Source of the DNA: a virus
IMG/VR virus record: IMGVR_UViG_3300022833_000042
Span: 1 to 26,167 of that record
DNA: 26,167 bases
Direction: 5' to 3' (one strand)
Part shown: one piece after another, positions 1,681-26,167 of the stretch
Layout of the letters: each line of letters starts with the position of its first letter
Numbering within the stretch: the stretch's first letter is position 1
Translations under genes and position numbers: made by a program
Notes under the pieces: model-generated
Told to the model about the DNA's origin: nothing
Database searches by the model: none
The model's input: only the letters and a program-made list of their open reading frames with translations

Positions 1681-1685
1681 ATTAT

Positions 1686-1692
1686 TTCACCT
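1686..1692 (-). promoter_or_regulatory. Shine-Dalgarno site of tail tube gene
   Basis: GAGGTGA on the minus strand lies 5 bases before the ATG at 1680. It is among the strongest such sites in the window, together with that of the capsid gene. Confidence 0.7.
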
Positions 1693-1736
1693 CTTTTTCC
1701 TTAAATAGAGTAAAGAGCGTTTGTTTCCTCATCATT

Positions 1737-1745
1737 ATTATACCA
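1737..1745 (-). promoter_or_regulatory. Extended -10 promoter of tail tube gene
   Basis: TGGTATAAT is a perfect extended -10 box. It predicts a leader of about 50 bases carrying a good Shine-Dalgarno. The T-rich plus-strand stretch upstream (A-tract on the coding strand) may act as an AT-rich up element. Confidence 0.68.
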
Positions 1746-1760
1746 CGTTTTTTTAACTAT

Positions 1761-12700: not shown

Positions 12701-13280
12701 CGGAGGGGGACCCCGATTGATTTAAGTATACGAAGGATATAAAGGGGTATACGTACTGGTAAGGAGAGCTGGCTGGTACCGAGAAGGTTGCAGAATACAT
12801 CGACCACTCGTTCGCAACTGGGCTTGAAAATATTTGTTTTTCTTTAAACTCAAAACTTGCTGGGTCGAAGGGGCTGTTTGAAAGGACATACCCGACTTCT
12901 ACCCCTGTGGTAAAAGACTGAAGAGCCTTTACGGAAAAGCTAATTGCAAAAGTATTTAAAGTTACGTTTAGAGAGCTAACGGGGATTGGATCTGAAAGCA
13001 TTACGGACAAAGACTCTAGGGGGTTTGCTCCTGCCACGGATGATAGCTTCGCGTACGAGCTTTGAAAGAATGGGATCCCGTTTAGATCTTCAGCAGGTAT
13101 GGATGCTGGATCGGTGGTAGAGTGGCTTGTGGTAGTATAGGGACTATCTGTCCAGCTATTTACGTCCCTTGAAGAATCGGAAACCAGAGACAGGTAGTCG
13201 ACAGTCTCATCCAAGGCCCATAGGGCGATTGGCTGCTCTGCAAAAACTTTTTCTGCATATAAATTTGATGGACTAGACAT
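9726..13280 (-). CDS. Large LamG-containing minor tail protein
   Basis: The 1184-aa product starts MSSPSNLYAEKVFAEQPIAL and continues ALDETVDYLSLVSD, an N terminus I associate with actinophage minor tail proteins. A concanavalin A/LamG-like segment is visible near residues 305-400 (PYTFEAWLRIDSRS; LVDIRIAVNSASLLVNGEEV). Similar beta-sandwich repeats follow at about 520-660 and 900-1100 (KIFELESNYVSIKVFMQPIDN; FYINGKIVKT; LGIRFAEPLRF). No signal peptide or membrane segment is seen. LamG folds bind glycans, so a host-surface-binding role on the tail is inferred. It is the largest gene in the window and forms its own unit, between the last adhesin cassette and the portal. Confidence 0.75.
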   Translation of the reverse strand: MSSPSNLYAEKVFAEQPIALWALDETVDYLSLVSDSSRDVNSWTDSPYTTTSHSTTDPASIPAEDLNGIPFFQSSYAKLSSVAGANPLESLSVMLSDPIPVSSLNVTLNTFAISFSVKALQSFTTGVEVGYVLSNSPFDPASFEFKEKQIFSSPVANEWSMYSATFSVPASSPYQYVYPFISFVYLNQSGSPSAPSSYDYVVNGFAAGQWAEQFSAESLGVTNTVDLSADAQIEFSAEAFIPGYQYGLGGNQAKYLVKNNKLLAKNTSMPMVYGSENLTRIQPNQTEGKPSLLLPGMGMLDNSGRYNPYTFEAWLRIDSRSDQPRKILGPTSSDYGLYSDGPFLRFKIGEEIGSYFVGEWYRPMLVDIRIAVNSASLLVNGEEVLNITYETSELVFEDLENGEDYWGVYAYEDVPVVEIDCPAFYPYVVPSLVAKRRFGFGQAVESPDGSNKSFGASTAFIDYSVADYTNNYQYPDMGKWEHGISENIDTTGLALSSPTVSLPDFIFQSTDYDSWYSVQKTHLTPYFTFSENPGFIRFQTLDIDNQPSKAVYAIFEIESFSSDPKIILKLVNKVNGDSFSVILLQDVLSYELTIRGQASVISTKQGITLNEKVFVGASFVSLSNYFGSDVLSFFSNVQQLMMFVAGDNTYTAQFDGKIYKVGLCTQRNVNKVPEFFEVEELGYVDAGFYNMSVWSNVLDGGIPSSFTFEELYDHIATYTLTASIDYGVYSLDVDCDSYWQDYLPLSYFAQYVKDSFGEEYYDLSFLQLNVDYPSTPKFKLSSYDTDEALVKTYVSFQLIESGATKQLSEFSDVATAQRNNVVNPTDIRYGAGWINTAFEVVDGTIIYPPNDVPMTSYAIVTHIEMKVRGAIKNKVGLRSLQYASQAFNDTTSNPIGTKFNVPIFPYQRYSLFYDYKSRNPYRIYKGSTPYLYLTKKSGIEKVGDYDALINRGFLINVNEKAAENYSLIATQMFMFFGQDSFPTGETKIFELESNYVSIKVFMQPIDNSNKRVRLYALNAKTGQFQTGLAFYINGKIVKTPTINLNEWTALGIRFAEPLRFDSSVGAIRFTGPMLVNNISYYESSSLQEVERQSVRLWDAVSASSNSWAYWKNLLTQSATDYLWNDVLILSSTQYYGVNPSSIYKAYAGTSKIVAGDDSVLYVGGILGYKITNGLAWSSSIVKPL

Positions 13281-13284
13281 TTTT

Positions 13285-13290
13285 CTCCTA
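13285..13290 (-). promoter_or_regulatory. Shine-Dalgarno site of LamG gene
   Basis: TAGGAG lies 4 bases before the ATG at 13280. With the -10 box just upstream, the mRNA leader would be hardly longer than this site. Confidence 0.55.
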
Positions 13291-13294
13291 GTCT

Positions 13295-13303
13295 ATTTTA
13301 GCA
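13295..13303 (-). promoter_or_regulatory. Extended -10 promoter of LamG gene
   Basis: TGCTAAAAT, an extended -10 box, ends 14 bases before the ATG at 13280. Confidence 0.55.
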
Positions 13304-13353
13304 CATAAGACATAATAATTCATCCTAAGGCTGATGAAAACTACCTGACTAAA

Positions 13354-13383: not shown

Positions 13384-13695
13384 TTAGCTTTCTTCTGCAA
13401 CCTCTGGTTCGTGAACAACTTCTTCCCACTTACCATCTTCTTCGTTCCATGTGTGGTCACCTTCTGGTTTTTCAACAGGAGCAACCCAAAGAGTCTGCTC
13501 TTCGTTTAAGCTCCAGCTTTCATATGGCTTTACTGGTACGACTAATCCAAGCTCTTCGTCAAAGACGTAACCAATATTAGCGTTATCAGACTCTACACAG
13601 GTCCTGCCAGTGACTTCTTCCGCAACCTCTGCCGACTTGGCAAGGATAACGTTTACTACACTGTTGTCTACTAGTACTGCTATTCTTTTATTCAT
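13384..13695 (-). CDS. Small tail-fibre accessory or assembly protein
   Basis: The 103-aa product starts MNKRIAVLVDNSVVNVI from the ATG at 13695, one base after the stop of the 558-aa adhesin. An in-frame TTG three codons earlier (13704) overlaps that stop and is less likely. The sequence has IGYVFDEELGLVVPVKPYESW and LWVAPVEKPEGDHTWNEEDGKWE, a Trp- and Pro-rich pattern I know from small genes that directly follow tail-fibre genes in marine phages, often labelled tail-fibre assembly. The C terminus is strongly acidic. It closes the third adhesin cassette, so a chaperone role for the preceding fibre is the best guess. Confidence 0.55.
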   Translation of the reverse strand: MNKRIAVLVDNSVVNVILAKSAEVAEEVTGRTCVESDNANIGYVFDEELGLVVPVKPYESWSLNEEQTLWVAPVEKPEGDHTWNEEDGKWEEVVHEPEVAEES

Positions 13696-13696
13696 A

Positions 13697-15373
13697 TTAA
13701 GCAACCCATCTTAGTCTAACTGCTCCATTTTGTCCAGCACCACCGTATCCAAAGCCATTGAGCTGGCCAGAAGTTCTACCCCATCCATCTATGCCTCCTC
13801 CTTCTACTCTTAGACCGCTTATACCGCTAGAGCCGTAGTTTACAGACATAACATTACCCGCAGCATCGCTACCGCTGTTGTACTGAGTAGAGTATAGGCT
13901 GCTATTATTGCTTCCGTGGCCTTGGTAGCTCATCACGCTGTAGATAAAGCCATCGGCAACTCCAGAGTCCGCAAATATTTTCCTTGGAGAGCCTGATCCA
14001 TCATATATGTACCTGGAGATGTCGCTAACCTGCGCGTTGCCTGCCCAGCGTAAGACGGGGTTTGTGGCTTGGAGGCTTCCATCACTGTTATTCAAAAAGC
14101 CTGCCCCGTAGTTTGCTAGGTCATTTCTTCTGACCATTTGCTGACCAGAAGTTTCGGGGTATGTAACCATAAACACACCATATTGATTTTCATCAAATTT
14201 TTGTACGTTCATTAACCAGACAGGTGAAGCCCAGGTGCCACCATAGTTGCTGGTGCTGCTAGTGCTGCTGCTGTTTCCATCGCTGGAAAAGTTGTAACTG
14301 CCCGCCACAATACTGGCAGTATTGTTGTCATACTTTAGTGAAACCCTTACTGACGAGGAATTTTTACCAGCCTGTGAAATTACTGCAGTTCTATACGCGT
14401 TAGCCGAAGAAGTTTTCACGAACCTGTTAATAGTACTGGCGTTGGAAAAACTAGAAAAACTACCGTTTGAGGTTCCCCAAGTACTTCCTCCATTTGTGGA
14501 GTACTGGTAACTGCGGTTTGGGTTTCCAAGTGTATAAATGTTGTTTTCACCAGCTCTAATGATTACGTCTCCGCGAGTGCTGTTAGTGTTGCTGAAGCCT
14601 CCGGCCATAATATTAGAAGTGTAAGCGTGACGGTCAGGGCCGACTAATACGGCATGATTGCTACCTGTCATAATCATGTCACGAATTGTTGCAGCGTAAT
14701 TGAATACAACCCAATTTAGCCCCTGGTCTTCGGAGGCGGCGTAATAGGTACCATCTTGGCGAAAAAGAATCCAGTAGGAGTCATTGTGATGCATTAACAT
14801 GTTTGAGCTATGAACTATGCTAGCAAATGTGGTTGCGTCACCAGTTATAGAATTAACTGCGGTCCAAGAAGAGCCGCTGTTAGATGTGACCATTGCCTCT
14901 GAGCCATTTTGGCTAATAGAAATTCCGTGCCCATCGTGGGCCGCAAAGTACATCATCCTGTCACTAGTTCCAGTTAAGTATGAGGTCTTTTTAGGAATAG
15001 GAAAATAGCTGTTGTCAATACTTTCTTCAACCGCAACAGCAGCGTCAATAAAGTCACCACCGTACGAGCTAGCAGAGTAACCCTCGCCCCTGCCGCCTGT
15101 TGCATAAAACTGACCATCCACCGTAGTAGTGCCACCAGTGACACCGGTACCACTAGCTTCGGCGCCAATCACTATTGCAAGAGAAGATTTACCCTGAACA
15201 TTGTAAAGGCCGTGACCGACACCCGCTCTTGCTTGCTGATTTCCTCCACCACCGGCTATCAGGTACTCTACCGTCTTTACACCAATGGGTACCTGCCAGG
15301 TTTGTGAGGATGTAATGAGGGCCTCAAACTGCTGAGGGACCGGAGCTACTACACCTAGTTGATTGATAGCCAT
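13697..15373 (-). CDS. Glycine-rich adhesin with inserted beta-propeller
   Basis: The 558-aa product starts MAINQLGVVAPVPQQF. Residues 20-105 form a glycine-rich domain with TSSQTWQVPIGVKTVEYLIAG near the start and repeated Gly runs. Residues about 125-500 show sialidase/BNR-like blade motifs (SNSGSSWTAV; SEDQGLNWVV; STNGGSTWGTS), so a propeller lies here. The glycine-rich fold then resumes at the end (GGGIDGWGRTS to GQNGAVRLRWVA). Glycine-rich tip domains of this kind in other phages bind host receptors (T4-like gp38 adhesins). The ATG overlaps the previous stop (TAATG). It is the main product of the third cassette. Confidence 0.65.
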   Translation of the reverse strand: MAINQLGVVAPVPQQFEALITSSQTWQVPIGVKTVEYLIAGGGGNQQARAGVGHGLYNVQGKSSLAIVIGAEASGTGVTGGTTTVDGQFYATGGRGEGYSASSYGGDFIDAAVAVEESIDNSYFPIPKKTSYLTGTSDRMMYFAAHDGHGISISQNGSEAMVTSNSGSSWTAVNSITGDATTFASIVHSSNMLMHHNDSYWILFRQDGTYYAASEDQGLNWVVFNYAATIRDMIMTGSNHAVLVGPDRHAYTSNIMAGGFSNTNSTRGDVIIRAGENNIYTLGNPNRSYQYSTNGGSTWGTSNGSFSSFSNASTINRFVKTSSANAYRTAVISQAGKNSSSVRVSLKYDNNTASIVAGSYNFSSDGNSSSTSSTSNYGGTWASPVWLMNVQKFDENQYGVFMVTYPETSGQQMVRRNDLANYGAGFLNNSDGSLQATNPVLRWAGNAQVSDISRYIYDGSGSPRKIFADSGVADGFIYSVMSYQGHGSNNSSLYSTQYNSGSDAAGNVMSVNYGSSGISGLRVEGGGIDGWGRTSGQLNGFGYGGAGQNGAVRLRWVA

Positions 15374-15705
15374 TATGAGATCTCCAAACCGAATGCTGTA
15401 AACGTTAAGGCCAAGTCCGTATTTGATCTTACGGACACCACGTCGGTAGCTCCAGTGGTGATTCCTAGAGTAAGGGTAGTTGTAGAGTTCCCCGCTATTA
15501 CAGCGTCGTACACGACGGCTGTGGCCTCATCCGCTACCGCACCAGCTGGTCGCACAAAGATTCTGAATGTTGCGTTTAGTGTCGTAGTGTTGGCTACTGC
15601 AATAGTAGATGTTATCGCTTGCCCTCCAGAGGGGACTGTGTATAGGTCTGTGACAGCTGTATCTGCTGGTCTAGACTGACCTAGCACTTTGTAATTAGAA
15701 GCCAT
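15373..15705 (-). CDS. Small beta protein of fibre cassette (copy 2)
   Basis: The 110-aa product has the pattern MASNYKVLGQSRPADTAVTD followed by LYTVPSG, FRIFVRPAG, TLTLGIT and a C-terminal FTAFGLEIS. It is a clear paralogue of the 111-aa protein at 20633-20968: YK.LGQ.RPAD, DLYTVP, FVR and AFG.EI are shared, with nearly equal length. The fold is predicted to be a single beta-sandwich. Similar proteins occur near fibre genes of aquatic phages. It lies right before a large adhesin in both cases, so it may be an adaptor for it. ATG at 15705 has AAGGA about 9 bases upstream. Confidence 0.6.
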   Translation of the reverse strand: MASNYKVLGQSRPADTAVTDLYTVPSGGQAITSTIAVANTTTLNATFRIFVRPAGAVADEATAVVYDAVIAGNSTTTLTLGITTGATDVVSVRSNTDLALTFTAFGLEIS

Positions 15706-15759
15706 GGAAGATTCCTTTTCTTTATTTTCTTACCTTAGGCAAGTTTTGTTATACTATAC

Positions 15760-15765
15760 ATTATA
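15760..15765 (-). promoter_or_regulatory. -10 promoter of third fibre cassette
   Basis: TATAAT (preceded by GCG, not TG) lies 54 bases before the ATG at 15705, and a further TATAGT box follows at 15754-15759. The leader includes a small imperfect hairpin (CTTGCC/GGTAAG). Confidence 0.45.
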
Positions 15766-15787
15766 CGCTATTTTTAAGTTTTCTGCT

Positions 15788-16861
15788 TTAACCTTCGATT
15801 GAGTACTCATATAACAAGAATTCTTCTAGCTTGCCTGCCATAGTCATTGGGTCAAACCACATGCTGTACACGGGGTATCTGTTAATATACATCTCAAAAG
15901 ATTTTTCAGTGATGTTTCCTGCGGTGTCTGTAGCACGGACTGTAAAAATAGCCTCGTCTGCATCAGCTAGCAATGAGTCATCGCCAGTTATCTGACCAGT
16001 TTCTTCATCTATAGAAAACCCTGCAAATAATGAACCTGAGACTATGCTGTAATCGATATCACTTGATTCAACGTCTTGAGCAACTAGGGATAATACTGTA
16101 GTATCTCCCTTTTCCCAAAACAGGGGAGAGTTTGTAATCCAAGATGCAAAAGTTCCAGCACTAATAGCGCTTGTCAATATGTGCTGAGTAGGAGCCTGGG
16201 TTGGCAGGGGGATTCCAGGGTTAAGAACAGTGATAGTATAAGGATTAAATGTAGGTGGCATATCATCTGGCCTTGTAACCACTAACTCTGAAGAGGAAGT
16301 CCTTACAATGTTTTTTGCTGCCCTTACGACAAGGTCTGATCCGGTAAAGTCAACTGTAACATCAGTAGAAAAATTACCACCAATTATTGTCGTGGTGTCG
16401 TTAAAGCTTTCTAGCAAAGACGGCGTTGCGCTTGAGGCAAAGACAGGTGCTCCATCATCGATGTTATTGCTTGAAACGGTAAAGGTTGTGGCCTTGGTTT
16501 CAAACTTAAGGGTGTCATCCGTTGTTGTTCCAACTACAGATATACGAACAATTTCATCGGTGGCAATTAACCTGCCCTCTGTCGTGTACCCCACAAGATC
16601 TCCAGATGCATTAATTGCATAGATATCGTAGGTGCTGTCATCTTTTTCGCTTGTAATGAAATATGACCCAGCAGGCTGAGGGGAGACCAGCTCAAAGTTA
16701 GTGTTTCCATCGGTACCTACGTAGAGGTAAAAGCCATTACCTCCGCCACCCCCAGAAGCAGAAGCTACCTTTTCCCAAGCTGATCCTGACCAGATCCAGG
16801 TAAACCCTCCGCCGCTTAGCTCTTGGCCAATGACGGGGTTAATCGGAAATACAATTGCCAC
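15788..16861 (-). CDS. Ig-like tail-fibre protein with shared N terminus
   Basis: The 357-aa product starts at a GTG (MAIVFPINPVIGQEL), with GAGG about 9 bases upstream and 3 bases after the previous stop. Residues 1-31 carry the FP..P......WIW.G..W anchor seen in three neighbouring genes. A Gly-run linker at 37-42 leads to a strand-rich part. An IPT/TIG-like domain spans about 145-215 (SLLESFNDTTTIIGGNFSTD), and a putative cadherin-like Ig domain spans about 235-330 (YSIVSGSLFAGFSIDEETGQ). Such Ig domains decorate fibres and may bind glycans weakly. It shares a transcript with the 129-aa gene. Confidence 0.6.
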   Translation of the reverse strand: MAIVFPINPVIGQELSGGGFTWIWSGSAWEKVASASGGGGGNGFYLYVGTDGNTNFELVSPQPAGSYFITSEKDDSTYDIYAINASGDLVGYTTEGRLIATDEIVRISVVGTTTDDTLKFETKATTFTVSSNNIDDGAPVFASSATPSLLESFNDTTTIIGGNFSTDVTVDFTGSDLVVRAAKNIVRTSSSELVVTRPDDMPPTFNPYTITVLNPGIPLPTQAPTQHILTSAISAGTFASWITNSPLFWEKGDTTVLSLVAQDVESSDIDYSIVSGSLFAGFSIDEETGQITGDDSLLADADEAIFTVRATDTAGNITEKSFEMYINRYPVYSMWFDPMTMAGKLEEFLLYEYSIEG

Positions 16862-16864
16862 GCG

Positions 16865-17254
16865 TTATACCTCTATCCAAAAAGAGTTGTGATATATATA
16901 TTCAATAAAGTTTGTTGTGTTTACCCAACGAGATCCCTGTACAGGATTAGACGGAGCAGTTGTTGACAGTGCAGTTAGGGGAAGAAATTCCAGGTCTGAA
17001 ATATCCGCCATTACGTGGGCATGATCAAAGTCCGTAATCTCGGACTTCGTGTGATTGTGGTCAAAGTCAGTAATCTCAGACTTGATGTGGTTATGAGGCT
17101 CTGGGGGAAATTCTGTTGGTTTTTCAGACACTCCACCCCAAGCAATATTCCCAGCGGTATCGTTACTCCATGTCGTGCCATTCCAAACCCAAGTGCGGTC
17201 ACCTGAAGTGAAAGAATCACTGAGGGTGGGGGAATCTGGGAAGTTAATTGCCAT
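16865..17254 (-). CDS. Short fibre protein with three HxH motifs
   Basis: The 129-aa product starts MAINFPDSPTLSDSF. Residues 1-29 are the FP.SP...WVWNG..W anchor. Residues 54-80 repeat a 12-residue unit around H.H (HNH at 54-56, HNH at 66-68, HAH at 78-80) with KSEITDFDH between. The C terminus has the SNPVQGSRWVN and FIEYIYHNSFWIEV module also present in the first fibre gene. In the T4 long tail fibre, HxH motifs of three chains coordinate iron along the trimer axis, so a metal-bound trimeric needle is a reasonable idea. The start follows a -10 box by exactly 6 bases; there is no Shine-Dalgarno. Confidence 0.65.
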   Translation of the reverse strand: MAINFPDSPTLSDSFTSGDRTWVWNGTTWSNDTAGNIAWGGVSEKPTEFPPEPHNHIKSEITDFDHNHTKSEITDFDHAHVMADISDLEFLPLTALSTTAPSNPVQGSRWVNTTNFIEYIYHNSFWIEV

Positions 17255-17260
17255 AATAGT

Positions 17261-17269
17261 ATTTTACCA
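17261..17269 (-). promoter_or_regulatory. Extended -10 promoter of 129-aa gene, leaderless
   Basis: TGGTAAAAT ends 6 bases before ATG 17254, so the message should begin at the start codon. It is part of the repeated 37-base element. Confidence 0.62.
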
Positions 17270-17297
17270 TACTTTTATTTTTAAATTATGATGCTTT
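17261..17297 (-). repeat. Repeated 37-base promoter element, copy A
   Basis: The 37 bases here and at 21465-21501 differ at one position (17277 versus 21481). The element holds the -10 box and an AT-rich upstream stretch, and lies at the same distance before two genes with related N termini. Confidence 0.8.
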
Positions 17298-17340
17298 CGA
17301 CTTTTAGACAATAGAGAGATAATCCCACTGTGTTAGTATA

Positions 17341-17607
17341 CTAAGGTGCCGCTTCCTCTACTGGATCTTCCTCTACTGGGTCTTCCTCTACTGGTTCTTC
17401 CTCTACTGGTTCGTGGGGAGGCTCAACCACAACTTCGCCAAACAAAAGATCCGCATACCCGGCAGCCCAATCTCTTGCCTCTTCGGCTGAAACCCAAGGT
17501 CTCCCAATAGGGTTGAGCGGTTGAGTAATTGTTGGAGGCCCCTCTTGCTCTAAGTTATCCCATATGTTTGCAGTGTAATCATCTTGTATTTCGTATGAGT
17601 ATTTCAT
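17341..17607 (-). CDS. Small acidic fibre-cassette protein
   Basis: The 88-aa product starts MKYSYEIQDDYTANIWDNLE at an ATG that overlaps the preceding stop by 4 bases (ATGA), so it is coupled to the 1009-aa adhesin. Residues 1-60 form a small domain with WVSAEEARDWAAGYADLLFG, a helix; residues 62-88 are a PVEE-type tail from four 15-base repeats. Its place after the adhesin matches the 109-aa and 103-aa genes of the other cassettes, which suggests an accessory or assembly role. The tail may act as a flexible acidic linker. No known enzyme motif is present. Confidence 0.52.
   Translation of the reverse strand: MKYSYEIQDDYTANIWDNLEQEGPPTITQPLNPIGRPWVSAEEARDWAAGYADLLFGEVVVEPPHEPVEEEPVEEDPVEEDPVEEAAP
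17355..17414 (-). repeat. Four 15-base tandem repeats (PVEE tail)
   Basis: Four near-identical 15-base units encode PVEEE/PVEED/PVEED/PVEEA. Such in-frame tandem repeats can gain or lose units by slipped replication. Confidence 0.85.
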
Positions 17608-20600
17608 GCTACGATCACATCTCCAACCTTCTTTAAAAAGACACTTTCGTTAATACTGCCTGAATAGAGCAGGCGTCCCGCGCTGGTCACACCTACAATT
17701 TGAGCTCCCGCTTGAGCAGAGCCTACAAAAGAGTCGGAAGCACTAAGGTTTGCGCTTACTCCAACAGAAGCTGATCCGCTAGAAAATGACTGCACCGTAC
17801 CAGCGTTACCAAGGTCAATAAAGTAAGGTGACCTATAAAGCGAACTCGTGTAGGATGGGCCACTTGATCCGCCACTGCTACCGCCTACGGCGCCAGTAAG
17901 GGGTATGGCAAGAGTGATGTCCCAGCCGGGGTAGCTGGAACTAGAAGTGCCGTAACCGCCTGGGCTCTCTGTCCCAGCCGCTGCAACATATTTACTATAT
18001 ATCGCAATGCCTTCGGTGCCGCCCCGCTGTACGTCGGTATCATATCCGGCAGGGGAGGTCGCGGAGCTCGAAATATTTGCTAGACCAAATACAGTGACAT
18101 AAGAAGGTCCGGTAACGTCTACTGCCCCTGGCTGATGCTGACTTGTTGTGGAGAACGCTTCATTCCCATCAAACGAGCTTTGCTGAACACCTCTAAATGC
18201 AATCGCTGCGGCTGCATTAAAATTCACACTAGAGCTTTGCGTAGATGAATACATCATGTCCGCCCCTTGAACTATAAATCCAGAGTCAGGGTAGTCGTCC
18301 ATAAACTTGTAATACAAACCGTATATATAATTTTGCCCGAAGTAATATGAAGATGCACTTAGCGGCTTCCATCCATCTGCAAGCTGTGGAAACATGTCAT
18401 TCAATGAGTACTGGCTTGATTGCGCAATAAAACCTACTATGACAAGATCACCCTTTTGCAGCCCGCCCTTAAACACCATACCCCCATACCCGCCACGTGG
18501 GTTCTGTGTAGTCGCCCAAAGCTTCTGGGGGACCGGCGCAGTAGTCAGGCTTCCTGCAGATGGAGCGTCGATTGCAGTCCAAGAGATGCCATCAGGGCTT
18601 GTTGCACTAAGCCCAGCTGAACCAACAACTCTGAGCAATCCTCCGCTAGAGGAGATGTCAACTAAATTGTCGGAAATTGGGACAGTGCTTGTTGCCCAGC
18701 TTATACCGTTGGCTGAATAAGCGACGCGGTCCTCGCCAACCATCCAAAAGTTACCATTAATAAACCTAACTTTATTCATTACAGGTATAGGGGAAGAAAA
18801 CTGAGTAAAGTAATTTGCATCTGATGACCTGTAGGCAACTTTTCCAACGCTTACGTAAGTACTAGCTCCAAAAGCAACAGAGTTTTTATATTTTCTCGGT
18901 GAAACTGAAAAAGAAATGCTCCTATAATAAGATTGGGGGTTGCTAGTAAAAACGCGTTGCGCCCCCCCCGACCACGCCAAAGTATTTGGAGCGACTGTAG
19001 AGGTTTTTTGGTGAACAAATATGCCGCCATAAGTGCTCGATGACCCAGTCGAATAGTTAGTCACCCAACCACTTGATGCGTAGTCAGTCCCGTACTCTCC
19101 ATTACTTGTAATGTTAAAAATTGTTGAATTGTTATCGTTATTTGCAGTAGTTGGGGCCTCGGAAAAGAATTGATTGGAGTAACTCTGATACGTGGGGCTG
19201 ACCCTTAAGGAAGAGATGTCAGCATCCTTTATTACCATACAACTAGCCCAGTTGCCGCCGCTGGTGGTAGCAAACGTTACGGCAAATGCCTGTCCACCAG
19301 ACGACTCTTTATAGTAAATGTTTAGCGAGCCCTGATAGTTGCCTGAACCCAAAAGCGTCCAGCCTGAATCATTTAAGGTTGTCGTGCCATTTCGTGAATG
19401 ACCAATTGCAATTAGCAAGTCACCGGAACTGCTTGCGGGGACACCGCAGTTAAATGTCCCAGAACTATTGCTGCTGGCTGCGGATTGAGTGTGATAAAAA
19501 GGAGCTGGCTCTGTAAAAGCGCTTACGCCAGGCGTACCCCATGTAGACAGGTCGTCGCTTACTGCTAATCCTGTATTTTTCCTAGTGCCAAAATACTTAC
19601 CGCCAGCAAAATCTAAAGTTGAAATCTCTTCATTAATGTAGTTTGGCTTAAGTTGTATTGTTACTGCATACCAAACATCATCACCGGTTCCGCCCCAAAC
19701 ACCTGGGTCTTCACTGCCGCTAACTGTAATTGCTTTTGTTGCAGCCATTACGGTTTGACCATTAATCCCCGCAGCTTCAGCTACAACAAGGTTTTCATAT
19801 CCTGCTGGAGCTGTTACTGTTGATGCAACACTGTCATCATCAAGCCTTGCGGTTGCAATTATTAAGTCTCCTACGGACACGCTTTTAGATGCGTTATTGG
19901 GCATACCGCTTGTGCTGTTGCTATTTGAATTGCTGATACCAACAACAGTATCTTTTTGACTAACCCCCCTTACACAAAGTGCGACCATGGCACTTGCTTC
20001 CGAAAGCCCAGTAAGGCCAATTGAGGTATCAGGTGTTGTGCCCATGATCTTGTACATGGTCAACCCGTAAGAGTCGCTGTAAGTAGTGTTTTCGATTGCA
20101 GTCCAACCGCTAGGGAGAGTCGGCAGGGAAGCGTCAGATCCAATGTGAACAATAACCATGTCGGCAGCCTGAGCCCCTGTAGGCAGCGCTAGGCTGTAAG
20201 AAGTGCTTGCTCCGGCATCGCCGGTAGCTGTCCAGACAACTGTTGGAGCTAAAGCCGTTCCGTAGGTGCCTGTTCCACTCCATGATGATCCTGATGTAGA
20301 ACTTGCAAAGCTCAGGTCTTTTGCTACAGCCTTAAAATCAGCTCCAGTCCAGGCTGCTCCAATAAAAGCTTTGCCAGCTATAGCATTGCTCAATGAGCCA
20401 GCGTTCCAGGTTTCGGGCACAAAGCTCTCGTAACCTCCGACGCCAGTAATGTTGCTAAAAGCACAAAGCTCCTCTTGTTGTCCTTGCACAATAAAAGAAT
20501 CTCCAGATGCCGAAGAAAGCGTAAAAGGGCCTGAGGCAGTTGCCTCGTAAAGGCCAGCTGGGACATCAATTTCTGACCTGCTTGAGTCTATAAAATAAGT

Positions 20601-20633
20601 TGTACCTTCAACTTTTGGTGTGCCTACTGACAT
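17604..20633 (-). CDS. Large modular adhesin: propeller with three inserted domains
   Basis: The 1009-aa product starts MSVGTPKVEG at an ATG overlapping the previous stop. Three ~200-aa copies of a beta-rich domain, each with a hydrophobic GDL.IA motif, a W near residue 25 and a conserved end, lie at about 130-330, 375-580 and 698-912. Between them are short blades with propeller-type motifs (SDDLSTWGTP; SANGISWATS; SPDGISWTAI). The protein appears to be one propeller with large domains set into its loops. The end is a Ser/Ala-rich beta segment. It is the major product of the second cassette and is probably a receptor-binding fibre; ligands are unknown. Confidence 0.6.
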   Translation of the reverse strand: MSVGTPKVEGTTYFIDSSRSEIDVPAGLYEATASGPFTLSSASGDSFIVQGQQEELCAFSNITGVGGYESFVPETWNAGSLSNAIAGKAFIGAAWTGADFKAVAKDLSFASSTSGSSWSGTGTYGTALAPTVVWTATGDAGASTSYSLALPTGAQAADMVIVHIGSDASLPTLPSGWTAIENTTYSDSYGLTMYKIMGTTPDTSIGLTGLSEASAMVALCVRGVSQKDTVVGISNSNSNSTSGMPNNASKSVSVGDLIIATARLDDDSVASTVTAPAGYENLVVAEAAGINGQTVMAATKAITVSGSEDPGVWGGTGDDVWYAVTIQLKPNYINEEISTLDFAGGKYFGTRKNTGLAVSDDLSTWGTPGVSAFTEPAPFYHTQSAASSNSSGTFNCGVPASSSGDLLIAIGHSRNGTTTLNDSGWTLLGSGNYQGSLNIYYKESSGGQAFAVTFATTSGGNWASCMVIKDADISSLRVSPTYQSYSNQFFSEAPTTANNDNNSTIFNITSNGEYGTDYASSGWVTNYSTGSSSTYGGIFVHQKTSTVAPNTLAWSGGAQRVFTSNPQSYYRSISFSVSPRKYKNSVAFGASTYVSVGKVAYRSSDANYFTQFSSPIPVMNKVRFINGNFWMVGEDRVAYSANGISWATSTVPISDNLVDISSSGGLLRVVGSAGLSATSPDGISWTAIDAPSAGSLTTAPVPQKLWATTQNPRGGYGGMVFKGGLQKGDLVIVGFIAQSSQYSLNDMFPQLADGWKPLSASSYYFGQNYIYGLYYKFMDDYPDSGFIVQGADMMYSSTQSSSVNFNAAAAIAFRGVQQSSFDGNEAFSTTSQHQPGAVDVTGPSYVTVFGLANISSSATSPAGYDTDVQRGGTEGIAIYSKYVAAAGTESPGGYGTSSSSYPGWDITLAIPLTGAVGGSSGGSSGPSYTSSLYRSPYFIDLGNAGTVQSFSSGSASVGVSANLSASDSFVGSAQAGAQIVGVTSAGRLLYSGSINESVFLKKVGDVIVA

Positions 20634-20968
20634 TATTCAATCTCGCTTCCGAATGCATGAAATGTAACTGTGTTGCCGACTTCTGTTTGGACTGTAATCG
20701 TGTCTCCACCGCTTAACGTAACTCCTACTGTTAAAGAGATGGGGCTTCCTGGAGCGACCAAGACTTGACTTGCAAATTCGTTTGAAAAAGATGCATCGGC
20801 TAAAGTGCCGTCAAACTTTCGGACAAAAACCTTTGCCCTAGAACTGCTAGAAGACGTGTTATTAAGCTGGAGCGTTGAGATAACTGCTTGATGGCCAAAA
20901 GGCACGGTATAAAGGTCAGCATTGTCTGCGTCTGCTGGTCTTACCTGACCTAGTATTTTGTAGGTCAT
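20633..20968 (-). CDS. Small beta protein of fibre cassette (copy 1)
   Basis: The 111-aa product starts MTYKILGQVRPADADNADLY and is a paralogue of the 110-aa protein at 15373-15705 (shared YK.LGQ.RPAD, DLYTVP, FVR, AFG.EI). It starts 1 base after the stop of the 162-aa gene and overlaps the start of the 1009-aa adhesin by one base, which indicates joint translation. It precedes a large adhesin, as does the other copy. A single beta domain and no catalytic motif are visible; an adaptor or small tail protein is likely. Confidence 0.6.
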   Translation of the reverse strand: MTYKILGQVRPADADNADLYTVPFGHQAVISTLQLNNTSSSSSRAKVFVRKFDGTLADASFSNEFASQVLVAPGSPISLTVGVTLSGGDTITVQTEVGNTVTFHAFGSEIE

Positions 20969-20969
20969 T

Positions 20970-21458
20970 TTAGGCTCCCATCATCATTAACGTATTTGTA
21001 AGGCTGCCAGACGATGCCTCTATGGCCTCTGCGTTAGCCAATATATCTAGGCTGTTTGCACTAATCGCATTGACTACCGTTGTCGAAAAATTTTCGTCAT
21101 TTCCAAGAGCTAAAGCTAGCTCATTAAGGGTATCCAAGGTTCCTGGAGCGGCATCTACTAGGTCTGCAATCTTGTTATCAACCTCAGTTGAGGTGTCATA
21201 GTTTGCAAGCTTGGTATCCACTTCAGAGGACGTGTCGTAACTTGCGAGCTTAGTATCAACCTCAGAAGAAGTGTCATAGTTGGTAAGATCAATACTCAGC
21301 TCATCTGTGAGTTCGTTATAGCTCATAGGGGATCCCACAGTAAGTATTGCTGAGCTGGTTTCATTAGCTAGCCATACTGTACCGTCCCAAGTCCAGGTAC
21401 GTCCTTCTGCGGAGTACTCGTCGTTTACGCTAGGTGCATCTGGGAAGTTTAAAGACAT
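20970..21458 (-). CDS. Fibre protein with anchor, repeats and trimer segment
   Basis: The 162-aa product starts MSLNFPDAPSVNDEYSAEGR. Residues 1-30 carry the FP..P......WTWDG..W anchor. Residues 59-97 hold three 13-residue YDTSSEVDTKLA repeats also found in the 258-aa protein. Residues 98-130 have the DAAPGTLDTLNELA motif common in tail fibres, here LALALGNDENFSTTV. The C-terminal part is helical and Ala-rich. A leaderless start is expected: ATG lies 6 bases after a -10 box. It is probably the attachment or stalk protein of the second cassette. Confidence 0.62.
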   Translation of the reverse strand: MSLNFPDAPSVNDEYSAEGRTWTWDGTVWLANETSSAILTVGSPMSYNELTDELSIDLTNYDTSSEVDTKLASYDTSSEVDTKLANYDTSTEVDNKIADLVDAAPGTLDTLNELALALGNDENFSTTVVNAISANSLDILANAEAIEASSGSLTNTLMMMGA

Positions 21459-21464
21459 AGTAAT

Positions 21465-21473
21465 ATTTTACCA
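21465..21473 (-). promoter_or_regulatory. Extended -10 promoter of 162-aa gene, leaderless
   Basis: TGGTAAAAT ends 6 bases before ATG 21458, the same geometry as before the 129-aa gene. Confidence 0.62.
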
Positions 21474-21501
21474 TACTTTTGTTTTTAAATTATGATGCTT
21501 T
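21465..21501 (-). repeat. Repeated 37-base promoter element, copy B
   Basis: It is the second copy of the element at 17261-17297, one mismatch in 37 bases. The sequences further upstream are only loosely alike. Confidence 0.8.
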
Positions 21502-21560
21502 TTAGATTTCGGACAGTGGGCTCTGGACGCTCATTGGCATAAGGGTATTCGATCAGTCTT

Positions 21561-21644
21561 CTACTGGTTCTGGCCTCTTGCGGTTACGTTAGTTGAGATA
21601 TCAGTGGTGTTGACGCCAATTACGTTAGGGAAATTAATAGCCAT
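21561..21644 (-). pseudogene. 27-codon remnant or microgene with MAINFP start
   Basis: An ATG at 21644 opens a 27-codon frame (MAINFPNVIGVNTTDISTNV, then a stop). Its first six residues match the anchor of the 129-aa protein and nearly match that of the 162-aa one, but the anchor's WTW..G..W core is absent. A TGATACAAT box ends 6 bases before the ATG, as for its relatives. I read it as the retained promoter and 5' end of a lost fibre gene, left by recombination. A functional tiny peptide cannot be excluded. Confidence 0.5.
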
Positions 21645-21650
21645 GAGTAT

Positions 21651-21659
21651 ATTGTATCA
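21651..21659 (-). promoter_or_regulatory. Extended -10 promoter before microgene
   Basis: TGATACAAT ends 6 bases before ATG 21644, matching the leaderless arrangement of the neighbouring fibre genes. Confidence 0.55.
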
Positions 21660-21664
21660 GGTTG

Positions 21665-21994
21665 CTATCGAACCAAGCCTCTTACTAGTGCAGATACTTC
21701 AACCTCAGTTAGTCCGAGAGCAATCAGCTTTGCCTTTGCATTAGCAGGCGCGTCTCTGCGAGCTAATTCATCTGCTGTGAAGTCACGAACCGACCACTGC
21801 TGAGTCATTACACCATCAACTTCTGCTGGTGCGGCTTCCTCTATAGCTTTGCCCTCAACCGTGATTGGTCGGTCAGATTCGATTACCTCAGTCCAACCTT
21901 TTGGCAAAACATCACCTTGCTTAAAATTCTTTTTTTCAAGCTGCACATCGCCTATGTGCCTTGGGTATTCGTTTTTAGAATTTATGTATAGCAT
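21665..21994 (-). CDS. Tail-fibre assembly-like accessory protein
   Basis: The 109-aa product starts MLYINSKNEYPRHIGDVQLE. The YPR.IGD.QL and GDVLPKGW motifs are ones I associate with a widespread small protein found just after fibre genes in aquatic phages. Then VDGVMTQQWSVRDFTADE leads to a C-terminal helix pair with LIALGLTEVEVSALVRG. ATG at 21994 has AGAAAGG about 7 bases upstream and follows the propeller gene with an 11-base gap. The position after a fibre gene suggests an assembly chaperone. Confidence 0.55.
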   Translation of the reverse strand: MLYINSKNEYPRHIGDVQLEKKNFKQGDVLPKGWTEVIESDRPITVEGKAIEEAAPAEVDGVMTQQWSVRDFTADELARRDAPANAKAKLIALGLTEVEVSALVRGLVR

Positions 21995-22005
21995 TTGTTA
22001 CCTTT

Positions 22006-23340
22006 CTATATTGTAAGTATAAATTGAGTAGATGACGGTGTTGATGTTGTCTTGCTGCTTGTTTGGTTACCCAAACCACCACCACCTGAGTCCCCGCCGC
22101 CAGTGCTGGGGTAAAGTGTGTCTGAATATTCTGAGAGGCTGAGAACGGCATAATCATAAGTCCGAGAATTAAGAACATAAGACCCAGTAAGAGAACCGTC
22201 ATTTGGTAGCTTTAACACAAAAAAGTCTCCTCCGCCAGCACCGCCACCGCCATCTAATCTAGCGTTTATAATGATGTTGTCGTTTATGTCAATGTGGATG
22301 CCTTCACCGCTCATCTGCTGTGCAGTGCCAAAGCTCCGCTGGAACTGCAAAACTCCTGATGAATTATATTTTAGTAAAAGAACCTTATACTGACCTCCAA
22401 CTCCACCATCAGTCATTCCCGAGACATAAACATTTTCTTCAGAGTCAAGAGCTATAGACATACCCACATCATAGCCGCCAACATTACCATATAGCTTTGT
22501 CCATCGGTAGGTACCGCTAGAGTCCCAAGTAGATACAATTACGCTTCTGTTGCTATTTGTGTCATAATGTGTACCAACACAATAAACCGTCCCTGATGGA
22601 CTTACCGCTGTGTCCATAAACTCAATAGTTCTTGTGCCACCAATACTTCTCTCCCAAACGATGCTGCCAGAAGAATTGTATTTTACAATATGAGGTTTAT
22701 AATAATTTCCATAGTCATTCCAAGTTAAGTAAGCATTACCTGACGAGTCTACAGATACAAATCCACCAGAAGCGCCGCTGTAGCCACCCCTCCATCTTTG
22801 CCACTGAGTTGCCCCTGCGGTATTAATTTTTACTAATGCACCATCAGGCGCACCATAGCCTATTCTGCCGGGGTCCCTTGCTGTTCCCGCAAGGTAAGCA
22901 TTTCCAGAGCTATCTGTTGCAATACCTCCGCCTTGGTCGTTTTGAGTACCGCCTATAGACTTTTGCCATTGCAATGCCCCCGATGAATTATATTTAGCAG
23001 CCAGCCAGTCGTAACCACCATTGTTGCCGCTTTGTGTATAACCATTTACAAAATAGTTATTTGAAGAGTCTGAAGAGACATCTGTAAAAGCATCGTTACC
23101 TGACTGGCCCAAAAGCTTGCCCCATTGTACCGCACCGTTTGTGTCTAGCTTATAGATAAGCCCATCCTCGCTGCCAACAACATCTGCCCCGCCTCGACCT
23201 ATAAGTATTATGTTATTTTCAGAATCAACCATTAGTTTCTCTGAATAGTCATTGCCTGAACCGCCTATTGAACAGAACCAATAGGAATCGCCACCACCTG
23301 CCGCTTGGGAGTTTAGTATCCCTAATAACATCAAGCTCAT
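22006..23340 (-). CDS. Seven-bladed SBBP propeller tail protein
   Basis: The 444-aa product starts MSLMLLGILNSQAAGGGDSY. Seven copies of a D...GN.Y..G beta-propeller motif (SBBP type) occur at about residues 38, 90, 142, 197, 246, 298 and 349, spaced about 52 residues, each with a Y-NSSG-A-W step. That makes a closed seven-bladed disc. A Gly/Ser/Thr-rich tail (about 412-444) follows. The N-terminal LMLLGILNS is too short to be a signal peptide and fits a virion-attachment segment. The start abuts the stop of the preceding gene. Such discs often bind sugars, so a receptor-binding role is likely. Confidence 0.68.
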   Translation of the reverse strand: MSLMLLGILNSQAAGGGDSYWFCSIGGSGNDYSEKLMVDSENNIILIGRGGADVVGSEDGLIYKLDTNGAVQWGKLLGQSGNDAFTDVSSDSSNNYFVNGYTQSGNNGGYDWLAAKYNSSGALQWQKSIGGTQNDQGGGIATDSSGNAYLAGTARDPGRIGYGAPDGALVKINTAGATQWQRWRGGYSGASGGFVSVDSSGNAYLTWNDYGNYYKPHIVKYNSSGSIVWERSIGGTRTIEFMDTAVSPSGTVYCVGTHYDTNSNRSVIVSTWDSSGTYRWTKLYGNVGGYDVGMSIALDSEENVYVSGMTDGGVGGQYKVLLLKYNSSGVLQFQRSFGTAQQMSGEGIHIDINDNIIINARLDGGGGAGGGDFFVLKLPNDGSLTGSYVLNSRTYDYAVLSLSEYSDTLYPSTGGGDSGGGGLGNQTSSKTTSTPSSTQFILTI

Positions 23341-24117
23341 TTAGACCGCCGCTATGTTACCGATTAGTCTGTATTCGTCAGTTGCCACGCACAAAAGAGT
23401 GGCTGCTGAATACTGAGCGCCGATTGTAAAACTGCCCGAAGTCGTTGATACTTCTGCCGCCTTGATTGTTGCACCGCTTGCGGCTACGGTTAGTTCACCT
23501 GCGCCGTCTGCGATGATGTCTACCCTTGCACCAACCGCTAGGTCAGTGCTTGCGTTTACTGTTACCACAGTTGCAGAACCGCTTGTGAACTGAATAGTTT
23601 TGCCTGAATCAGCAGCAGCAGTTATGGTTCTTGATGTGGAAGAGTTTGTAATAAAACTTGCAAGCTTGCTGTCTGCAACCTTAGTGTCGACCTCAGCAGA
23701 TGTATCGTAATCTGTAAGCTTGGTATCTACCTCGGCAGAAGTATCATAATCAGCTAATTTAGTATCAACCTCAGCAGAGGTATCGTAGTCTGCAAGCTTA
23801 GTGTCGACCTCTGAGGAGGTGTCGTAGTCTGCAAGCTTAGTGTCGACCTCTGAGGAGGTGTCGTAAGCCGAAAGGTCAATTCCTACGGTGCTAGTACCAG
23901 CATTATAGGTAAGAGGAGAGGTTGCAGTGACTACACCGCTTGTACCATCGTCACCCTTAATGCCGCCGTATGCCAATGAAGTCCACGCTGTAACGCCGTC
24001 TCCAAGCTTAAACTTGTCAGTGTCTGTCTCGACACCAAACTCTGCGACTGCAAGAGTCGGGTTTGCAGCTGTCCACTCGGAAGCTGTGCCCCGTCTGAAT
24101 TGAATATTAATTGCCAT
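23341..24117 (-). CDS. Tail fibre with Mtd-N-like head and 13-residue repeats
   Basis: The 258-aa product starts MAINIQFRRGTASEWTAANP. Residues 1-50 match the N-terminal domain of phage major tropism determinant-type fibres (RRGT..EW, LA..E.G, KLGDG, W..L). Residues 85-149 are five copies of YDTSSEVDTKLAD. The C-terminal 100 residues form a beta-rich domain (SGKTIQFTSGSATVVTVNA; YRLIGNIAAV). No lectin fold or variable region is seen, so it is not an obvious target of diversity generation. ATG overlaps the previous stop by one base, so it is coupled to the collagen-like fibre. Confidence 0.68.
   Translation of the reverse strand: MAINIQFRRGTASEWTAANPTLAVAEFGVETDTDKFKLGDGVTAWTSLAYGGIKGDDGTSGVVTATSPLTYNAGTSTVGIDLSAYDTSSEVDTKLADYDTSSEVDTKLADYDTSAEVDTKLADYDTSAEVDTKLTDYDTSAEVDTKVADSKLASFITNSSTSRTITAAADSGKTIQFTSGSATVVTVNASTDLAVGARVDIIADGAGELTVAASGATIKAAEVSTTSGSFTIGAQYSAATLLCVATDEYRLIGNIAAV
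23671..23865 (-). repeat. Five 39-base tandem repeats in fibre gene
   Basis: Five 39-base units encode 13-residue repeats (YDTSSEVDTKLAD and close variants). At least two are identical at the DNA level over most of their length. The repeats probably form a coiled or beta-helical stalk. Confidence 0.8.
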
Positions 24118-26167
24118 TACACGCCTCCAGCGTCAATCGATGTTATTCCAGTATACACTGAGGATGGCGTTCCACCATCAATGTTTGCTACTGCAGGCCC
24201 AGCTGCGCCAGTAGGGCCGTCTTCACCTTGTATTCCCTGAGAGCCGACAGCACCCTTGAAGTTGGTTGCCGCTTCGACCCAGTAAGAGTCATAGTAGATA
24301 AAGAATCTTGCATTCGTGCTATTGAACCAGCCATCGCCAGGCTCTGGACTACTGGGGGCTGTTCCTGACACCAGGAACTTGCCCTGAGCACCTGTTGGCC
24401 CAACCATTACAGAAACTGCTTCTACCCAAAAGTTATCGTAATAGATATAAAGAACGCCCTCATCGGAGTTCCACCAAAGAGTATTTGGCTCTGCCTCAGA
24501 AGGTGGGGCATCCCCGACCTCGACAGAAGCGCCTCCTGATGCATAACTAAGCAAATCCCAGGTGTCAATTCCATCACCAATTTTTAGCTTGTTAGTATCG
24601 GACTCAAAAGCAGCTTCTCCTAGTCCCAGAACGGGGTTTTCGGATAACCACTCTGCGGCTGTGCTTCTTCTTAAGTTTATGGAAGACTGTGGAACATCTG
24701 AGGTTCCGCCGTCTACGACTAAAGAGTCATAATCGAGAGAGATCGTTGAGCTAGCTGAATCATAATCTATGGGAGATGTAGTCTGAAGGGCTCCAATGTT
24801 ACCAGTATCTCCCTTTGGAATAACAAAATCAAATACTGCACTTCCTGTGGTTCCAACGTTTGTAACAACAACATTATCAGTAGGAGCGCCTGTAGTTACG
24901 GTTCCAACTGATATGGTAGCAGCCTCACCCTGAATACCTTGCGCACCCTGCAAAGCAAGTGGATACCAGTGAGCAGATGCGTTGTCTGGTATTTCTCCAA
25001 CTACAGGATCTCCAGATGCAAACCAAGAGGCTGCTTCGTAAAATACTGCATCATTGTTTACGTAGTCCGCAGAAGCGTCCCAAGGCCCCTGCCAGGTGAT
25101 ACCAGTGGCACCAGTAGCTCCGATAGGCCCTTGAACACCAGTTAGTCCAGCGGGAATGGTAAAATCAAATACTGCATCTCCCGTTGTTCCGGAATTGCTT
25201 ACTTCTGCGGGGTTTCCAGTTGTTACAGATGTCACTGTTCCTACTGAAATACTAGCTGCAAGACCCTGAGGAATCTCAAAGTCTAAGACTGCATCTCCAG
25301 TTGTTCCCGAATTTGAAACGGTTGCTGAGTCTGAAAAGGGCACTGTGGATACAGAACCAACTGCAACTGTGGCTGCTTCTCCCTGAATACCTACAGGAAT
25401 AGTAAAGTCAAATACAGCATTGGTTGTATCTCCAGAATTTGTTACAGAAGCGGGGGTTCCAACAGGGACAGTTGTCGTTGTTCCTGCGGTCGCAGATCCT
25501 GCTAGACCTTGTGGAATAATAAAATCAAAAGTTGCATCCTCGGCAGTGCCAGAATTAGTAATCGTAGGCTGGGTTCCAGCATTAGATGCAGAAACGGATC
25601 CTACAGCAATCGTGGCTGCTTCTCCTTGAATTCCCTGAATTCCTGCTGGAATGGTAAAATCAAAGACCGCAGCAATGTTTGTGCCAACGTTTGTTATTAC
25701 TGGTGGATCCGTAGAGGCTCCGCCAGTTACAGCTCCAACCTCGATAGTTGCCGCTACAGCTCCTGCTGCGAATAGCTCCCAGTCAGATCCCGGCTGCGCC
25801 GGTGCATATCCAGAAGCATAATTTAAGTTTGGTCCGGTAGCATAATAGGTGCTACCCTCTAACTCCACTAAATCATTTTCAGCATAACTCTCGGCATTGT
25901 CATAAGCTCCGAGCCAATTTATAGGCAGGATTACGCCAGATACTGTTGCGGCAGAAAAGTCTACAGTTCCAGTAAAACTTGGGGAATCTATATCTGCCTT
26001 ATCGTCAAGAAGTCCAATGACCGTGCTTGCAAAGTTAGAGTCGTCGTTTAAGGCCGCTGCCAATTCGTTTAGGGTATCGAGACTTGAAGGGGCAGAGTCA
26101 ATTATTTGATTAGTTATCAGGGTGTAGATGCTGGATGAAGTTTCGTAATATGGAAGAGCTCCCCAGT
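24117..26167 (-). CDS. Collagen-like tail fibre with six repeats, 5' end missing
   Basis: The frame is open to the window's right edge, so the first 682 residues seen are not the start; the true start is beyond 26167. Near the edge it carries the SAPSSLDTLNELAAALNDDSNF motif. Two CBM-like segments (WLGAYDNAESYAENDLVEL, about 50-100 of the part after 26063, and WQGPWDASADYVNNDAVFY, about 324-372) flank six ~40-residue repeats ending in DF.IP.G. Collagen-like GPTGAQG runs, an Mtd-N-like domain (INLRRSTAAEW) and two IYYD.(F/Y)WVEA modules follow. It is a fibre, probably trimeric, that opens the adhesin region. Confidence 0.7.
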   Translation of the reverse strand, partial: WGALPYYETSSSIYTLITNQIIDSAPSSLDTLNELAAALNDDSNFASTVIGLLDDKADIDSPSFTGTVDFSAATVSGVILPINWLGAYDNAESYAENDLVELEGSTYYATGPNLNYASGYAPAQPGSDWELFAAGAVAATIEVGAVTGGASTDPPVITNVGTNIAAVFDFTIPAGIQGIQGEAATIAVGSVSASNAGTQPTITNSGTAEDATFDFIIPQGLAGSATAGTTTTVPVGTPASVTNSGDTTNAVFDFTIPVGIQGEAATVAVGSVSTVPFSDSATVSNSGTTGDAVLDFEIPQGLAASISVGTVTSVTTGNPAEVSNSGTTGDAVFDFTIPAGLTGVQGPIGATGATGITWQGPWDASADYVNNDAVFYEAASWFASGDPVVGEIPDNASAHWYPLALQGAQGIQGEAATISVGTVTTGAPTDNVVVTNVGTTGSAVFDFVIPKGDTGNIGALQTTSPIDYDSASSTISLDYDSLVVDGGTSDVPQSSINLRRSTAAEWLSENPVLGLGEAAFESDTNKLKIGDGIDTWDLLSYASGGASVEVGDAPPSEAEPNTLWWNSDEGVLYIYYDNFWVEAVSVMVGPTGAQGKFLVSGTAPSSPEPGDGWFNSTNARFFIYYDSYWVEAATNFKGAVGSQGIQGEDGPTGAAGPAVANIDGGTPSSVYTGITSIDAGGV
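24804..25751 (-). repeat. Six 40-residue repeats in collagen-like fibre
   Basis: The coding strand holds six copies of a roughly 40-codon unit (AAT..VG.V, TNSGTT..AVFDF, IP.G), with a carbohydrate-binding-like segment and a Gly-X-Y run between copies 5 and 6. The repeats vary in sequence, so they are not a fresh duplication. Confidence 0.75.

Follow-up and report, generated by a model that had tools for sequence, protein, structure and literature searches.

Three adhesin cassettes, each ending in a small candidate helper gene, in the putative receptor-binding region of a tailed phage

We analyzed the IMG/VR virus record IMGVR_UViG_3300022833_000042. The window, that is the whole stretch of DNA analyzed, is the entire record of 26,167 bases, and the remainder of the genome lies outside the data. 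This report deals with three groups of genes in its second half, here called cassettes, in each of which a large putative adhesin gene is followed directly by a small gene. Head and tail genes are located on the minus strand, and the families of the portal, the head maturation protease and the major head protein were recognised. Among named phages, the capsid protein is closest to proteins of Streptomyces phages; the top matches have 44-45% identity and cover 74% of its length. Additionally, a Pontimonas salivibrio phage carries relatives of two types of cassette protein, b110 and the 103 amino acid (aa) protein, both described below. Together, these relationships make an actinobacterium the likely host. 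Among phage records no near DNA match to the window was found. The comparison set comprised about 200 other phage fragments, and L-numbers denote related contigs.

All cassette genes are orientated on the minus strand (Table 1). In order of transcription, cassette 1 consists of a 258 aa fibre, a 444 aa propeller and a 109 aa protein. Cassette 2 comprises a 162 aa anchored fibre, a beta protein of the b110 family, a 1009 aa adhesin and an 88 aa protein. Cassette 3 starts with two anchored proteins of 129 aa and 357 aa, which are followed by a second b110 protein, a 558 aa adhesin and a 103 aa protein. The small anchored proteins have an N-terminal peptide, FPxxP...WxWxGxxW, in common (FP anchor peptide). 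The 109 aa gene follows the 444 aa gene at a distance of 11 nucleotides (nt), the 1009 aa and 88 aa genes overlap by 4 nt, and the 103 aa gene starts 1 nt past the 558 aa gene. A gap of 82 nt lies ahead of the b110 gene of cassette 3.

The initial annotation of the window had listed the 109, 88 and 103 aa genes as neighbours of the 444, 1009 and 558 aa adhesins, and these genes and their coordinates were correct. Its repeated order of anchored fibre, beta protein, adhesin and accessory gene was found in cassettes 2 and 3. Cassette 1, however, lacks the b110 module and any other separate beta protein, while its 258 aa fibre has a C-terminal beta-rich domain. Sequence comparisons gave no indication that the 109, 88 and 103 aa genes descend from one ancestor or belong to one family.

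Table 1. Features of the three cassettes and their surroundings in the window
Feature	Position	Strand	Supporting data
Collagen-like / Mtd_N-containing fibre gene, 648+ aa, running past the window end; upstream neighbour of cassette 1	24117..26167	-	PF18454 E 2.2e-11
Cassette 1: 258-aa fibre, Mtd_N-like N-terminus, C-terminal beta domain ending YRLIGN	23341..24117	-	PF18454 E 1.4e-13
Cassette 1: 444-aa SBBP beta-propeller adhesin, N-terminal MSLMLLGILNSQAAGG	22006..23340	-	PF06739
Cassette 1: 109-aa helper candidate, EYPRHIGD family	21665..21994	-	Linkage to SBBP propellers
Possible relic: 27-codon open reading frame MAINFPNVIGVNTTDISTNVTARGQNQ, anchor-like start	21561..21644	-	TACAAT 6 nt ahead of ATG
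Duplicated 64-bp block, copy 1 (TATGGTAAAATAnTAnT then ATG), leaderless-promoter-like	21438..21501	-	89% identical copies
Cassette 2: 162-aa anchored fibre, hydrophobic tail TNTLMMMGA at end	20970..21458	-	
Cassette 2: 111-aa beta protein, b110 family	20633..20968	-	
Cassette 2: 1009-aa adhesin, three Asp-box-like motifs, duplicated ~200-aa domain	17604..20633	-	
Cassette 2: 88-aa acidic end gene, PVEED repeat tail; helper candidate by position	17341..17607	-	
Duplicated 64-bp block, copy 2, ahead of cassette 3	17234..17297	-	
Cassette 3: 129-aa anchored protein	16865..17254	-	Similar gene precedes anchored propeller in L202
Cassette 3: 357-aa anchored protein	15788..16861	-	Residues 33-325 match adhesins of L120, L092
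Cassette 3: 110-aa beta protein, b110 family	15373..15705	-	
Cassette 3: 558-aa adhesin, glycine-rich-type N-terminus (~110 aa), ~400-aa Asp-box region, short Gly-rich C-terminus	13697..15373	-	
Cassette 3: 103-aa W-box helper candidate	13384..13695	-	Linkage; model; Foldseek

The 103 aa protein belongs to a family, here named W-box, which is conserved at W, P, Y and G columns while the partner adhesins vary. The scan for this family was run independently of b110. A glycine-rich open reading frame (ORF; threshold 0.35 glycine in the best 60 aa window) was located directly upstream of the W-box gene in 73 of 89 cases, compared to 111 of 379 for other ORFs of at least 150 aa in the same loci. 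After dereplication, 64 glycine-rich ORFs were paired with a W-box gene and 57 were not, while the respective numbers for other ORFs were 10 and 772. The association (64 of 74 dereplicated pairs) was highly significant (Fisher p 2.9e-53). The pairs are divergent and occur with or without b110. In a separate collection, a W-box gene followed a glycine-rich ORF in 12 of 15 cases. Contig L225, which was binned as Microbacteriaceae, carries two pairs of glycine-rich adhesin and W-box gene in succession (1161-3862).

The 444 aa protein of cassette 1 is a clear propeller, since it carries SBBP repeats (PF06739) at 56.5 bits against a curated cut-off of 20.5. Relatives were present in L003-L008 and L175-L222, and relatives of the 258 aa fibre immediately precede the propeller in L003, L004, L006 and L007. 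The scan for the 109 aa family yielded 50 loci. An SBBP propeller homologous to the 444 aa protein was directly upstream in 52 of 52 109-type loci with a visible upstream ORF, a count of all loci listed that includes close relatives or repeat contigs; dereplication left seven pairs. The family keeps this partner down to about 27% identity between its members and in different gene contexts. Exceptions are a distant relative in Proteus phage 10, judged real, which follows a collagen-like gene, and two propellers without an adjoining 109-type gene. Two further matches of the 109 model elsewhere were judged unconvincing, and the family was not found in the prokaryote genome contigs searched. Between the W-box and 109-type families there was no cross-pairing at all, and judged by their gene neighbourhoods both are strongly partner-specific. 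In L202 the anchor peptide is fused straight onto the propeller, with a 109-type gene downstream. This fusion speaks for a link between anchored proteins and adhesins.

A model of the 103 aa protein was built from an alignment of 76 sequences and reached a predicted local distance difference test (pLDDT) score of 94.5. In a Foldseek search against 350,542 PDB chains the sole credible match was 7ypx_a ('Cyanophage Pam3 fiber', 162 aa), with a probability of 0.99 and an E-value of 0.11; the runner-up had a probability of 0.04. We read chain a as the chaperone gp25, because the chain has 162 aa and the full length of Pam3 gp25 is given as 162 residues (PMC9608196). Pam3 gp25 uses its N-terminal beta-sandwich to bind the TNF-like/glycine-rich region of the fibre, and it was undetected in virions (PMC9608196). 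No relevant Pfam match was obtained for any of the 76 W-box members, and the 103, 109 and 88 aa proteins of the window matched no Pfam family at E-values up to 0.1. Fold match and gene neighbourhood of the 103 aa protein agree, neither being proof alone, and the protein probably acts like a Tfa-type chaperone. We do not class it as one, because it lacks the C-terminal helical domain present in gp25.

The initial annotation had also noted a paralogous beta protein of about 110 aa before two of the adhesins, and the two b110 proteins of the window indeed share 40% identity (E 2e-19). Both match phrog_1276 of PHROG over their whole length (E 2.6e-5 and 2.3e-7). The b110 scan covered at least 80 loci, with relatives at 44-57% identity. 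In about 90 contigs the same module was found, in which a fibre with a hydrophobic FLLMGA tail is followed by the beta protein and a variable adhesin. The ORF before b110 ended in an FLLMGA-like tail in 54 of 65 distinct cases, versus 108 of 2452 for all ORF ends. Furthermore, the b110 stop and the next start overlapped by 1 nt in 65 of 105 cases (332 of 2179 for other adjacent pairs), and the ORF after b110 was at least 150 aa long in 100 of 105. A single b110 module is present in many contigs, and 13 contigs besides the window have two or three. Contig L004 has the same cassette order with another b110 adhesin, of 198 aa instead of 1009 aa.

The b110 model was computed for a read-through chain of L092, comprising the fibre tail and its own b110; both b110 proteins of the window were among the aligned rows, and the model represents the family, not the window's own proteins. 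Within this chain b110 was predicted as a confident beta-sandwich. Foldseek matched the model to many viral proteins of the BFVD, including tail-fibre-like proteins of P-SSM2 and S-CAM1, and to the PDB with general jelly-roll matches only. In L045, L051, L079, L093 and other contigs with two b110 genes, these often fall into two subfamilies, one of about 109 aa with the C-terminus AFGSEIS and one of about 100 aa with the C-terminus HISGVEIS, which perhaps serve two distinct sites of attachment.

The 558 and 1009 aa adhesins matched no family. Four and three Asp-box-like motifs were counted in them, respectively, compared to 0.07 and 0.10 in shuffled sequences, and none of 2000 shuffles reached these counts. 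Both proteins are probably propellers. The N-terminal 110 aa of the 558 aa protein are related to glycine-rich adhesins (z 6.9; phmmer E 6e-4 to L086), while the C-terminal glycine-rich match (z 1.0) is not significant alone. By sequence, this adhesin resembles a protein of the glycine-rich type into which a large Asp-box region has been inserted. In the 1009 aa protein a domain of about 200 aa is duplicated (residues 129-330 and 697-916, z 9.5); a possible third copy (376-602) stayed below significance. The description of all three adhesins as propeller or glycine-rich proteins thus held for the 444 aa SBBP propeller, but at family level no more than the N-terminal region of the 558 aa protein could be tied to glycine-rich adhesins. 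No relatives of the 88, 558 and 1009 aa proteins were found in viral contigs or named phages, the viral scans requiring exact short peptide matches.

Residues 33-325 of the 357 aa protein are similar to the N-terminal portion of adhesins encoded after b110 in L120 and L092 (phmmer 5.2e-40 and 2.9e-34), which appears to be a sign of module shuffling. In these adhesins (L120:2782-4428 and L092:8330-10291) the first 290 or so residues match the 357 aa protein and a glycine-rich domain follows.

The two copies of the 64 bp block before cassettes 2 and 3 are 89% identical. Their 44 nt core, with ATG immediately after, occurs exactly twice, with 0 occurrences expected. The block resembles a leaderless promoter. 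We call it promoter-like from its duplication and position only, because a sigma-70 scan was no better than chance (20 found, 18.4 expected). The 27-codon ORF between cassettes 1 and 2 begins with MAINFPN and has its TACAAT placed as at the starts of the anchored genes. It is possibly the remains of another cassette. TATAAT- and TAAAAT-like motifs at 15748-15765 and 13285-13304 (minus strand) precede the b110 gene of cassette 3 and the gene of a 1184 aa protein, suggesting further internal transcription starts. The latter gene is located directly past cassette 3 (9726-13280, minus strand); its product matched no Pfam family, and its one PHROG match was weak and of unassigned function.

A switchable host range, as put forward initially, found no support in the fragment. 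For an invertible segment of the Mu G-segment type, no inverted repeats were found at the borders, those present in the fragment being short, imperfect and away from the borders, and no invertase was among the PHROG matches. For a diversity-generating retroelement of the Mtd type, the Mtd_N domain was the only component found; the PHROG matches of the fragment included no reverse transcriptase, and no search aimed at template and variable repeats was made. The Mtd_N domain is present in two successive fibre genes (24117-26063, near residues 462-499, and 23341-24117).

As a whole, we consider it fairly probable that the window represents the receptor-binding region of a tailed phage with three adhesin cassettes of two architectures, b110 coupling and fold-matched helpers. 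In cassettes 2 and 3 the b110 beta-sandwich, co-encoded with a variable adhesin, would most likely couple this adhesin to the anchored fibre. In cassette 1 the propeller adhesin follows a fibre that carries a beta domain of its own at the C-terminus. The product of the small gene behind each adhesin would most likely be a fold-matched assembly chaperone or a transient cap, with the 103 aa type serving glycine-rich-type adhesins, the 109 aa type SBBP propellers and the 88 aa protein possibly the 1009 aa adhesin. This points to adhesins that are each accompanied by a folding helper of their own. The dedicated helper proposed for every adhesin is well supported for the 444/109 and 558/103 pairs, by lineage-wide linkage and, for the 103 aa protein, by its fold match, whereas the 88 aa gene offers its position only. 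A multi-adhesin tail, with all three adhesins presumably on the same virion, is plausible because 13 other contigs carry at least two b110 modules.

Several observations weigh against this explanation. The 88 aa protein is a candidate from its position, no relatives having been found. The match to 7ypx_a is not significant by E-value alone and covers 62 columns with a TMq of 0.45; profile searches by sequence missed this chain and found no chaperones in the PDB. The model of the 103 aa protein has no gp25-type C-terminal helical trimerisation domain, its one short helix being located at residues 22-29. Among the dereplicated glycine-rich ORFs, 57 of 121 have no adjoining W-box gene, and the helper is thus not obligatory. 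The best 60 aa glycine window of the 558 aa adhesin itself is about 0.30 (sampled positions), and this adhesin was counted as an exception in the statistics. The linkage shows functional association, not binding. Regarding the coupling, the 357 aa protein before the b110 of cassette 3 has no tail motif, and in the L092 model the tail was unplaced (pLDDT about 66), with no confident docking of tail and b110.

The small proteins could also be permanent subunits of the distal tip which touch the receptor, as proposed for Mu Tfa or gp38 of T2-like/S16 phages, rather than chaperones that depart. Their gene position is the same as that of gp38 and Tfa. Mu Tfa is reported to remain on the fibre tip, whereas V22 gp27 is not (PMC7289586), and Alteromonas chaperones may serve as transient caps (PMC10579305). 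However, the W-box sequence is conserved in its W, P, Y and G columns against varying adhesins, unlike a hypervariable receptor tip, and no Pam3 gp25, its fold match, was detected in virions (PMC9608196). We regard permanent tip subunits as unlikely.

Somewhat less likely still, all genes might form one composite, branched fibre or tip, in which the cassettes would not be separate receptor-binding units. The contiguous, tightly packed arrangement on one strand would fit this, as would three adhesins of differing architecture, which parts of one assembly might show. The units are separable in other contigs, however: the propeller/109 unit is present without a following b110 cassette in L003, L006 and L007 and with another second cassette in L004, and contigs with a single b110 module are many, beside the 13 with two or three. 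Furthermore, cassettes 2 and 3 both open with a copy of the 64 bp promoter-like block.

It is improbable that the linkage reflects hitch-hiking, with the small gene co-inherited with the adhesin in one phage lineage without any functional tie. The dereplicated 109 aa pairs are few (seven) and some loci are close relatives. Against this, there are many W-box pairs (64 dereplicated), which are divergent, are found with or without b110 and were recovered in a separate collection, and the 109 aa family holds its partner to about 27% identity and across gene contexts. Equally improbable is that the FLLMGA tail is a by-product of an embedded ribosome-binding site for b110: where the gap is short, the tail is mostly encoded as GGA GCA TAA, which puts GGAG just before the b110 start, but the tail persists at gaps of 12-35 nt with a separate ribosome-binding site, its glycine frequently being encoded by other codons such as GGT or GGC, and the FLL residues ahead of the glycine lie outside any such site, so that we rejected it as the whole explanation.

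Returning to cassettes with b110 coupling and fold-matched helpers, we tentatively extend the scheme to aquatic phages of many kinds, although this wider form is somewhat doubtful. There, the FLLMGA tail of an anchored fibre might dock b110, b110 might present an exchangeable adhesin, and each adhesin fold might have its helper family (W-box in the case of glycine-rich adhesins, EYPRHIGD/109 in that of SBBP propellers). Most receptor-binding proteins of uncultured phages lack an annotation. Should the pairing hold true, a W-box gene would mark a glycine-rich adhesin upstream, a 109-type gene a propeller, and b110 the following adhesin gene. The W-box and 109-type families, which have no curated Pfam match, would then become markers, and ready pairs would be available for studying folding and the carriage of several adhesins by one phage.

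Similar arrangements are known from other phages. Cultured phages with members of the families described here include Pontimonas phage phiPsal1, Prochlorococcus phage P-SSM2 and Pelagibacter phage HTVC025P. The tail-fibre cluster of P-SSM2 (PSSM2_293-296, 301-302, 315) has b110 homologues beside tail-fibre-like genes (E 2.3e-17 and 2.5e-7). The N-terminal 200 or so residues of PSSM2_315 hold weakly scoring b110-like regions, and PSSM2_296 begins with the FP anchor peptide. In contrast to the window, W-box and 109-type genes were not found in the two 50 kb stretches searched; a literature search on five P-SSM2 locus tags found nothing. Ackermannviridae likewise have several receptor-binding proteins per phage. 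Their tailspikes are joined in a branched complex (PMC11414711), whereas no attachment or branching domain was identified in the window.

In the Alteromonas phages V22 (gp26/gp27) and A5 (gp8/gp9) a chaperone gene is located directly after the fibre gene, in a module common to unrelated marine phages (PMC7289586, PMC10579305). Here, V22 gp27 is with 21.8 kDa about twice the size of the small proteins of the window, its relatives carry DUF4376, and the window differs by several cassettes in tandem. Pam3 gp24/gp25 (PDB 7ypx) differs from cassette 3 in the C-terminal helical trimerisation domain of gp25 (162 aa versus 103 aa) and in gp24, which as described has no propeller insertion. However, both systems pair a small protein with a glycine-rich or glycine-rich-type adhesin, and the beta-sandwich of gp25 is the fold match to the 103 aa protein.

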